In this document: piece after piece, positions 46,241 through 49,589 of the stretch
Layout of the letters: every line of letters begins with the position of its first letter
How positions within the stretch are numbered: position 1 is the stretch's first letter
NCBI GenBank assembly: GCA_016875395.1
Contig: VGRF01000002.1
Location: 271,815 to 335,814 of the forward strand
From: Deltaproteobacteria bacterium
GTDB lineage: Bacteria; Myxococcota_A; UBA9160; UBA6930
Direction: 5' to 3'
Length of the DNA: 64,000 nucleotides
Translations under genes and position numbers: made by a program
The notes under the pieces: model-generated
The model's input: only the letters and a program-made list of their open reading frames with translations
Databases searched by the model: none
What the model was told of the DNA's origin: nothing

Positions 46241-46292
46241 CACGCAAAGCCCGCAGCCCGGCGGACTCCGCCGCGAATCCCTAACAACCCGT

Positions 46293-46320
46293 GGCCCGGA
46301 CGTGCGATAGCGTCCGGGCC
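46293..46320 (+). promoter_or_regulatory. Perfect hairpin touching the ggt start codon, with -10-like TAGCGT
   Basis: GGCCCGGACG (46293-46302) and CGTCCGGGCC (46311-46320) form a 10-bp stem with an 8-nt loop, ending at the base before the ATG. TAGCGT (46308-46313) lies 7 nt before the ATG, overlapping loop and stem. No ribosome binding site is visible. Confidence 0.5.
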
Positions 46321-48012
46321 ATGTGCTTTTCGAGAGCCGCGCACGCGGCGTTCTTCATCGTATTTCTCGCTGCGCGGCTGTCGTTCGCCGCATCTCCCGA
46401 TCCCGCGACGGGAACGCGCGGGATGGTCGTCACGCCGCATCCCTCCGCGACCGCGGCGGGCGTGCGCGTGCTCGAGCGCGGCGGCAACGCGATCGACGCG
46501 GCGATCACCGCTGCCCTCGCGATCGCCGTGGCGCAGCCGAACTCCACCGGCATCGGTGGCGGCGCGTTCATCCTCGTGCGCCTCGCGGATGGCCGCGCGT
46601 TCGCGATCGACGCGCGCGAGACGGCGCCCGCCGCTGCGCACGCCGAGATGTACACGCGCCCCGACCTCGCGGCAGACGCATCGCGCTTCGGTGGGCTCGC
46701 CGTCGGCACGCCGGGCCTGATCGCGGGCTTCGCGCTCGCGCTCGAGGAGCACGGCACGATCTCGTGGAAGCACGCGCTCGCGCCGGCCATCGCGCTCGCG
46801 GACGAGGGCACGCCGCTCGGGCCCTACACGCGCCGCTTCATGGGCTTCATGCGCGCGACCCCGCTGCCCGCGCGCTTTCCCGAGGTCGCGCGCATCCAGC
46901 TGCCGCCGGAGCCGATCGCGGGGGGCAAGCTGCGCCAGCCCGAGCTCGCGGGGACGCTGCGCCTGCTCGCGAAGCGCGGCCCGCGCGCCTTCTACGAGGG
47001 CGCGCTCGCGGAGAAGATCGCGGCCGCGGCGCAGGCGAGCGGCGGCGTGCTCACGGCGCGCGACCTCGCGGGCTACACGCCGCTCGTGCGCGAGCCGCTG
47101 CGCGGCGAGTACCGCGGCGTCGAGCTGCTCGCGTTCCCGCCTCCGTCGTCGGGCGGAGTGACGCTGATCCAGACGCTGAACATTCTCGAAGGCTTCGACC
47201 TGCGCGCGAAGGGCGCCGGCTCCTCCGAGTCGATTCACCTCGTGAGCGAGGCGCTGAAGCTGGCCTTCGCCGATCGCGCGCTTCACCTCGGTGACCCGGC
47301 GTTCGTGGCCGACATGCCGGTGAAGCAGCTGCTCAGTGACGAGTACGCGGCGAAGCTGCGCGCGCGCATTCGCGCGGACCGCGCGAGTCGCGTCGACGGC
47401 TCGCAGCTCGCGGTCGACGACGCCGGCACTGCGCATCTCTCGGTGGTGGACGGAGCGGGCAACGCCGTCGCGATCACGCAGACCGTGAACGGCCCCTACG
47501 GCGCGTGGGTCGTCGTGCCCGGAACCGGCGTGATCCTCAACAACGAAATGGACGACTTCGTCACGCAGCCGGGCGAGGTGAACCAGTGGGGCTTGTTAGG
47601 GCTCGCCGATGCCGCGAATCGCGTCGAGCCGGACAAGCGCCCGCTCTCGAGCATGGCGCCGCTGATCGGCATCGAGAACGGGCGCGTGCGCTTCGTGGCC
47701 GGCAGCAACGGCGGGCCCCGCATCATCACCTCCACCTTGATCGCACTGCTCAACGTCGTCGACTTCGGGATGGACGCGCAGGAGGCCGTCTCGGCGCCGC
47801 GCTTCCATCACCAGTGGCGGCCCGACGTGCTCGACGTCGAGGGCGAGACGCCCGCCGACGTCGTCGCTGCGCTGAAGGCGCGCGGGCACGAGGTGAAAGT
47901 CTCGGACGAGATCATCAGCGGTGTCGAAGCGATCGTGGTCGATCCGAAGACGGGCGTGATGAGCGGCGGCGCCGATCCGAGGCGCGACAGCAGCGCGATG
48001 GGGCTCGACTAG
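46321..48012 (+). CDS. ggt: Gamma-glutamyltransferase
   Basis: 563 aa proenzyme. Signal peptide (AAFFIVFLAARLSFAA), then GMVVTPHPSATAAGVRVLERGGNAIDAA (start of the family domain) and self-cleavage site AGTAHLSVVD with the catalytic Thr at about residue 370. GSNGGPRIITS follows in the small subunit. Cleaves glutathione and other gamma-glutamyl compounds in the periplasm. An upstream in-frame GTG (46291) would add ten residues through the hairpin and is less likely. Confidence 0.92.
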   Translation: MCFSRAAHAAFFIVFLAARLSFAASPDPATGTRGMVVTPHPSATAAGVRVLERGGNAIDAAITAALAIAVAQPNSTGIGGGAFILVRLADGRAFAIDARETAPAAAHAEMYTRPDLAADASRFGGLAVGTPGLIAGFALALEEHGTISWKHALAPAIALADEGTPLGPYTRRFMGFMRATPLPARFPEVARIQLPPEPIAGGKLRQPELAGTLRLLAKRGPRAFYEGALAEKIAAAAQASGGVLTARDLAGYTPLVREPLRGEYRGVELLAFPPPSSGGVTLIQTLNILEGFDLRAKGAGSSESIHLVSEALKLAFADRALHLGDPAFVADMPVKQLLSDEYAAKLRARIRADRASRVDGSQLAVDDAGTAHLSVVDGAGNAVAITQTVNGPYGAWVVVPGTGVILNNEMDDFVTQPGEVNQWGLLGLADAANRVEPDKRPLSSMAPLIGIENGRVRFVAGSNGGPRIITSTLIALLNVVDFGMDAQEAVSAPRFHHQWRPDVLDVEGETPADVVAALKARGHEVKVSDEIISGVEAIVVDPKTGVMSGGADPRRDSSAMGLD

Positions 48013-48016
48013 AGCG

Positions 48017-48820
48017 CTAGGCGGGGCTCATCGCGCCGAGCGTGCGGTCGACGCTCGCGCCGAAGTCTTCGCCCCACGCGTAGGGCAGGTCGACGAGCGT
48101 GCCGCCGTGTGTCGCGGTCTCGGCGAGGTGCAGCGCGTCTGACAGCACGCGGCGCTGCATCGCGACATCGCGGGCCCGCCCGAACGGGTTGCCCATCGGG
48201 AAGTTCACGAACACGCTGCGCGGCGGCAGCACCTGCGCGGTGAGATCGCGCCCCGTCGAGACGAGCACGGTCGGAATGCCGCGAGCTTCGAGGACGCGAG
48301 CGACCAGACCCACGGTCTGGTGGTCGAGCGGTCAAGCGGGCACGAGCACGAAGAGATCGACGTGCTCCTTCGAGAGCGTCTCCGCGAGCGCGGGCGCTGC
48401 GACCTCCGTGACGTGCGAGCGCTTGTAGATGCGCCCCATGAAGCCGCTGTAGTGGTGCGGCGCGACTTCGGCGATCACGACTTCGCGCGCGAGCTCGCGC
48501 AGGCGCTCGAGCGGGAACACGCAGTTCACGTCCTCGCGCGCCGAGCGCACGTCGTAGTAGGAGTCGTGCACCTGGAAGTCCGGCGCGGAAGCGCCGCTCG
48601 CGATCGCGTCGAGCCGGAACTCGTTGCGCGCGTCGGGATTCCACGCCGGCATCGCGCAGTGTGACACGCCTCCGGAGGTGAGCAGCGAAACGCGGCACTC
48701 GCGCAACGGCTTCGCGAGGGGCGTCAGCGGCGCTTCGCGGTGAATCGTCCATTGATAAGGCGGGAAGCCTTGTGCGCGGTAGCGCGCGTTCAGGCGATCG
48801 ACGTAGCGGACGGGTTCCAC
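48017..48820 (-). CDS. GrdB/PrdB-like reductase family protein, probable selenoprotein (in-frame TGA)
   Basis: Read through a TGA at 48334-48332 as selenocysteine, this gives 267 aa from a GTG at 48820 (GAGG leader 5 nt upstream). N-terminus EPVRYVDRLNARY and PLRECRVSLLTSGGV, middle HDSYYDVRSAREDVN and HHYSGFMGRIYKRS, then VLVPA-U-PLDHQTVGLVARVLE with U at residue 163, and EARGIPTVLVSTGRD, FPMGNPFG downstream. This is the selenoprotein B family of glycine/betaine/proline reductases (often single-gene relatives of unknown substrate). Both sides of the TGA are clearly one protein. A redox-active U or C is expected at this place. Without recoding it would be a pseudogene. Confidence 0.75.
48303..48321 (-). 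promoter_or_regulatory. SECIS-like hairpin after the in-frame TGA
   Basis: On the coding strand an 8-bp stem ACCAGACC/GGUCUGGU with a GUG loop begins 10 nt after the UGA. An alternative fold pairs CGACC/GGUCG below AGACC/GGUCU with a 3-nt bulge. Stem distance and a GU in the apical loop fit bacterial SECIS elements such as that of fdhF. Confidence 0.6.
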
Positions 48821-48894
48821 GCGCACCTCGATCTGGCTCGGTAGCGCAGCGCGTTGCTCGCGCGCTCCATCGTTCAGGCCGCGCGGGCTCGCGT

Positions 48895-48908: not shown

Positions 48909-49589
48909 ATGCGCCTCGCAAAGCCCTGCATCGACGTCGGCATCCTCACCAACCGCGGTGAGGAGCAGCTCGCGTTCTGGCAGAACGAAGTCGGGTTGCC
49001 GTTCGAGGAGCGGCTGCCGGTGCGGCGCGGCTTCGTGCAGATGCGCCACGCGCTGAACGGATCCGTGTTCAAGCTGAACGTGGTGGACGCGGAGATTCCC
49101 GGCGCGCCGCCGAGCGGCTACCGCGAGCTGTGGATCGCGCGCGAGGGTGTGGCAGCGCCGCGCGCGCTCGCAGATCCCGACGGCAATCGCGTCGTGCTCG
49201 TGCCGCCGGGGCACGCGGGAGTCAGGGGAATCGGCGTCGTGCTCGCGGTGCGCGACGCGGCTGCGCACCGCGCGTTCTTCACGCGCGCGCTCGGGCTCGC
49301 CGAGGAGGCGCCGGGCGCGTACCGCTGCGGCACCTCGCTGTTCCTCGCGCGCGAAGACGCGAGCGCGCGCGGCGACGTCGTGCGCGACGGCCTCGGCTAC
49401 CGCTACACGACGATCCAGATCTTCGACTGCGACGCGGAGACGAACGGCATCGTGGCGCGCGGCGGCGTGCTCGGTGCGCCTGCGATCACGCTCGGCAAGA
49501 CCGCGCGCTTCTCGTTCGTGCGCGATCCCGACGGCAACTGGATCGAGATCTCGCAGCGCGCCTCGCTCACCGGCCCGCTGCCCGAATGA
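48909..49589 (+). CDS. VOC family (glyoxalase-like) protein
   Basis: 226 aa with two VOC half-domains. First: DVGILTNRGEEQLAFWQNEVG and LADPDGNRVVLV; second: GVVLAVRDAAAHRAFFTRALG and FVRDPDGNWIEIS. The DPDGN-x-(V/I) blocks carry the metal-ligand Glu/Val positions. Lyase or dioxygenase activity on an unknown substrate. Confidence 0.8.
   Translation: MRLAKPCIDVGILTNRGEEQLAFWQNEVGLPFEERLPVRRGFVQMRHALNGSVFKLNVVDAEIPGAPPSGYRELWIAREGVAAPRALADPDGNRVVLVPPGHAGVRGIGVVLAVRDAAAHRAFFTRALGLAEEAPGAYRCGTSLFLAREDASARGDVVRDGLGYRYTTIQIFDCDAETNGIVARGGVLGAPAITLGKTARFSFVRDPDGNWIEISQRASLTGPLPE

Follow-up and report, generated by a model that had tools for sequence, protein, structure and literature searches.

A minus-strand gene within the window (the whole analyzed stretch of 64,000 nucleotides) is almost certainly a true bacterial selenoprotein gene of the PF07355 (GrdB/PrdB-like) family, in which the UGA at codon 163 would be decoded as selenocysteine (Sec). 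This assignment is based on sequence comparison: on the codons that homologues carry at the same site, and on the pairing pattern of a hairpin shortly downstream of it. Genes of this kind, Sec-encoding members of the GrdB/PrdB family, were described from environmental bacteria as early as 2005; less familiar are a widespread branch with a UxxD motif and without a partner protein, to which the gene belongs, and the way in which the family has multiplied within one Myxococcota class.

Gene organization and reading frame

If its single TGA is read as a residue, the gene forms one open frame from a GTG start codon to a TAG stop codon (Table 1). The first-pass annotation had described two minus-strand frames, separated by one TGA at 48334-48332 without any frameshift, as a single GrdB/PrdB-like protein. 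These coordinates are exact, the frame stays open throughout, and the reading as one protein agrees with the match to PF07355 (30.1 bits, over the gathering cut-off of 22) and with the single domain predicted for the product. The GTG start is backed by the alignment, in which nearly all homologues begin with M-E/K-P-I/V-x-Y-V at this place. The gene is flanked by a convergent gamma-glutamyltranspeptidase gene (46291-48012) and by a divergent gene of the glyoxalase family (48909-49589).

Table 1. Position of the PrdB-like selenoprotein gene and its elements in the window.
Feature	Position	Strand	Remarks
PrdB-like selenoprotein gene	48017..48820	-	GTG start (48820), TAG stop (48019-48017), 267 residues, putative Sec163
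Putative Sec-UGA codon	48332..48334	-	Codons of homologues and column of Terrisporobacter PrdB
Putative bacterial SECIS hairpin	48303..48321	-	Stem of 6-8 bp, GU of the loop conserved at 48313-48312
PF07355 (GRDB) match	48341..48739	-	Profile search; profile positions 212-345 of 347
Possible ribosome-binding site GAGG	48826..48829	-	5 nt before GTG; read from the sequence

Codon identity at the UGA site

The homologues used for comparison, 57 from other genomes, were fetched with patterns leaving out the UGA site and belong to Myxococcota, Actinomycetota, Pseudomonadota, Acidobacteriota, and Hydrogenedentota. At the site, 52 of them carry TGA and five a Cys codon (TGC or TGT), and nothing else is found, just as the first-pass annotation had expected with Cys or Sec. 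Concerning the wider family, obtained by a TIGR04483 profile search over 379 genomes of the phylum, nearly every listed match contains exactly one TGA, and the extracted set comprises 126 sites with TGA and 7 with Cys. Furthermore, the UGA of the window aligns to the same column as the Sec-UGA of Terrisporobacter prdB, a D-proline reductase gene according to NCBI; the comparison with family members thus yields Sec-UGA or Cys only. In the genome of the window, TGA is also the ordinary stop codon of selA, of selB, of the glyoxalase-family gene, and of others, so that neither a changed genetic code nor a general recoding is at work.

The hairpin downstream of the UGA

The hairpin (ACCAGACC-GUG-GGUCUGGU) starts 10 nt downstream of the UGA. 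Its folding energy is unremarkable (z -1.2 and -0.9), and across the window around 1.3% of the TGAs are followed by a comparable hairpin at the same spacing, such that the hairpin alone would not prove much. An Rfam search returned no element matching it.

Across homologues, the core positions (six pairs) of 119 distinct TGA elements are standard-paired in 99.6% of the cells, and all six pairs are formed in 97.5% of the elements, whereas synonymous codons drawn from the same genes give only 65% paired cells and 4% complete cores, and synonymous codons drawn from the same columns 87% and 39%. Counting the U of UGA as position 0, compensatory changes are found at pair 14-30 (C-G, U-A, G-C), at pair 17-27 (G-C, A-U, U-A, C-G), and at pair 18-26 (A-U, U-A, G-C), and the loop pair 20-23 covaries (C-G, G-C, A-U), enclosing a G that never varies and a U present in 118 of the 119 elements. 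A hairpin with GU in its loop at this spacing, as proposed from the sequence of the window, is thereby borne out. The element also fits the published model of bacterial SECIS structures, with a G in the first two loop positions, a loop of the form N1-G-U-N2 with N1 and N2 paired (here pair 20-23), and a spacing of 16-37 nt (PMC13188914).

Within the clade of the window protein, the Gly codon in the hairpin region is GGT in all 53 distinct TGA forms, with GGC as the commonest Gly codon nearby, whereas the five Cys forms of the clade possess GGC or GGG and never GGT; pair 18-26 is broken in all five of them, and the Val of the loop is replaced by Ala in four. We regard this contrast between Sec and Cys forms inside one protein clade as the strongest single piece of evidence. 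By this comparison the hairpin is a genuine SECIS element, its pairing being maintained through compensatory changes, and the Cys forms have lost it.

Selenium machinery and other candidate selenoprotein genes

All four genes of the Sec pathway (selA, selB, selC, and selD), whose presence had been named as a check, are found in the genome of the window: SelA; SelB with the winged-helix domains wing_2 and wing_3; a tRNA-Sec with the anticodon TCA (UCA); and a SelD domain over the SelD cut-off. This last domain follows a pyridine-nucleotide oxidoreductase domain within one fusion protein of 742 residues (L019:283-2511), which also resembles a model named 'not SelD', though with a score under the cut-off of that model. 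Where a genome of the same class possesses a PrdB-like gene, selA is present too in 68 of 69 cases, compared with 16 of 22 genomes lacking such a gene (Fisher p 0.0007).

The same genome contains a second PrdB-like gene (contig C32:41415-42035; L109:4914-5666) with one in-frame TGA, a UPVC motif, and a SECIS-like hairpin of its own (CACCAGACCGTGAGTCTGGTC). A SelW-like match (C21:43194) and four AhpC-TSA (peroxiredoxin-family) matches over cut-off (C29:57572, C3:113907, C1:299554, C3:71709) hold one TGA each as well. None of the formate dehydrogenase-type matches in this genome holds a TGA, nor does its selD. A survey of 2006 argued that the Sec trait is maintained by a Sec-containing formate dehydrogenase or SelD (PMC1794560); since neither was found here, the PrdB-like proteins together with the peroxiredoxin-like and SelW-like ones may be what keeps Sec decoding in this genome.

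Predicted structure

The AlphaFold2 model, built with 82 aligned family members, exhibits a single continuous domain across the UGA (mean pLDDT 95.9, pTM 0.93). Sec163 is situated between a strand (156-160) and a helix (164-179), at the N-terminal end of the latter; reactive Sec or Cys residues typically occupy such a position, where a strand leads into a helix. According to the model, the part after the UGA is integral to the fold, and a truncated product would miss it. No convincing match to a solved structure emerged: a fold search of the PDB gave a best E of 0.04, and every listed hit had a TM (by query) under 0.4, while the search for solved relatives by sequence gave spurious hits only, including designed repeat proteins.

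Alternative readings of the UGA

The in-frame UGA might also be explained by a Cys codon that was mutated or misread to TGA, such that only fragments are made. TGA lies one base from the Cys codons TGC and TGT, and the genome of the window is a draft of 96 contigs. However, the same TGA recurs in 52 of the 57 independent homologues, and its occurrence in dozens of independently assembled genomes excludes a read error, which the first-pass annotation had wished to see checked. Moreover, the sequence beyond the TGA, described there as conserved-looking, is conserved to near the C-terminus of the homologues and is predicted to form a single domain together with the preceding part, and downstream synonymous sites are constrained into the hairpin. 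In view of these comparative data, a pseudogene or an assembly error thus appears exceedingly improbable and in practice already refuted. Hardly more probable is a UGA serving as a regulated stop, which under low selenium would yield a 162-residue N-terminal form with a role of its own. Sec insertion generally competes with termination in bacterial selenoproteins; yet three invariant residues (E178, R201, and Q222) lie in the C-terminal third, and Cys forms without any stop exist, which argues for the full-length form as the selected product.

Phylogeny and conserved residues

In the tree, the window protein falls into a clade of 61 rows (support 100/99) with 56 Sec and five Cys members. The site is followed by PLDHQT in all 61 rows, whereas the other Sec branches exhibit UPxC; the resolving Cys of the UxxC motif is thus replaced by Asp (D166 in the window protein) in the whole clade and has probably been lost. 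Conserved together with Sec163 are D97, E178, R201, and Q222. The Cys forms arise twice on the drawn tree, and a single origin of them is conceivable as well. One clade protein (L022) comes from a source that NCBI names Deltaproteobacteria and places in Myxococcota; its sequence is the same as that of genome G144, which shares its class with the genome of the window. Such NCBI-named relatives point to Myxococcota as the phylum of the latter.

Four genomes of the same class, order, or family (G144, G154, G348, and G120) contain five to seven PrdB-like matches each, nearly all with one TGA; these multi-copy genomes represent a lineage-specific selenoprotein expansion.

Relationship to D-proline and glycine reductases

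The protein could be a true D-proline reductase (PrdB) or a GrdB of glycine, sarcosine, or betaine reductase. Its best NCBIfam match is indeed PrdB (TIGR04483, E 5e-37), and it has the family, a similar length, the Sec/Cys column (UGA in Terrisporobacter), and the residues D97, E178, R201, and Q222 in common with the PrdB proteins of Terrisporobacter and Enterococcus. Environmental relatives were also called PrdB in earlier surveys (PMC1088965, PMC2398784). However, the match reaches only 127.5 bits, far below the cut-off of 300; the identity to annotated PrdB amounts to 32-33%; neither prdA nor a prd operon is present; and the UxxC/CxxC active-site motif is missing, the window protein and all Sec members of its clade possessing UPLD where PrdB has U/C-G-T-C. 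With respect to GrdB, the protein covers the C-terminal section of PF07355 given in Table 1, whereas the N-terminal half is missing (267 residues vs a full length of around 430), and the score for TIGR01917 (31.6 bits) lies far under the cut-off of 602. PF09338, the domain of the PrdA/GrdE partner, was not found in the genome of the window or in 12 relatives, whereas it adjoins PrdB in two relatives over the PrdB cut-off (G369 and G371), which served as a positive control. Of the assignment as GrdB/PrdB-like, membership in PF07355 and the closest resemblance to PrdB therefore stand, whereas with scores below the NCBIfam cut-offs and no PrdA/GrdE neither glycine nor D-proline reductase is to be assumed, and an enzyme of either kind is very unlikely.

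The selenoproteins listed as 'proline reductase PrdB' in the Sargasso Sea and GOS surveys are likewise related to PF07355, are abundant in environmental bacteria, and comprise more Sec than Cys members. There is an apparent difference in the active site: the motif listed in these surveys is UxxC (PMC1088965, PMC2398784), whereas the clade of the window has UxxD. A Cys form of the same family, Roseomonas WP_207415257.1 ('glycine/sarcosine/betaine reductase selenoprotein B family protein'), is 38% identical to the window protein and differs in that it has kept CxxC (CPVC), as in the UPVC branch that holds the second copy of the genome. In Roseomonas haemaphysalidis, the Cys form (CPVC; L159:3968-4876) is convergent with selO (protein adenylyltransferase SelO). 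Concerning PrdB-like or GrdB-like proteins outside anaerobes, the literature search yielded environmental surveys and papers on Synergistota only.

Gene neighbourhood

No neighbouring gene is shared throughout the clade. A conserved operon was considered and rejected: the largest cluster (54 loci) and the cluster of 17 loci to which the window belongs both overlap the gene itself in antisense orientation. The listed members of the 17-locus cluster are open frames antisense to the gene or to the region immediately downstream, and the 54-locus cluster is taken to be of the same kind.

In five Alphaproteobacteria loci (L045, L053, L054, L060, and L066), the UPLD gene is followed immediately, on its own strand, by a gene for a TauD-like dioxygenase, and luciferase-like monooxygenases upstream and methyltransferases downstream are found in some relatives. 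All three kinds of neighbours, assigned by reading the sequences, are confined to small groups of Alpha- and Gammaproteobacteria. The window itself holds a P450 gene besides the glyoxalase-family gene, and together with the oxygenase-like neighbours of relatives this gives a hint of aerobic hosts, which, if so, would argue against Stickland metabolism.

Putative mechanism and implications

In the proposed course of events, SelB carrying the Sec-tRNA with its UCA anticodon would bind the hairpin just 3' of the UGA, and the ribosome would insert selenocysteine as residue 163 and continue to the TAG, giving a 267-residue protein of the GrdB/PrdB fold. The selenol would then attack the substrate to form a selenenyl species, and an outside thiol, for instance thioredoxin or glutathione, might then regenerate the selenol, since the clade does not possess the second Cys of UxxC. 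With this Cys replaced by Asp and no PrdA/GrdE partner, the protein may work through its single selenol as a reductase, reducing or cleaving a small substrate and depending on such a thiol for its regeneration, and be neither D-proline nor glycine reductase; we offer this reading tentatively, at somewhat less than even chances. With similar caution, the UPLD clade may be viewed as a distinct family: a stand-alone single-selenol reductase, apparently of aerobes, without resolving Cys and pyruvoyl partner, with a fold without counterpart in the PDB, and one of several PrdB-like lines that have multiplied in one Myxococcota class (up to seven matches per genome).

As standard gene callers stop at UGA, existing annotations are likely to show clade members as truncated or broken genes. 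The clade is a widespread Sec family of uncultured bacteria, and its chemistry probably differs from that of the anaerobic Stickland reductases.
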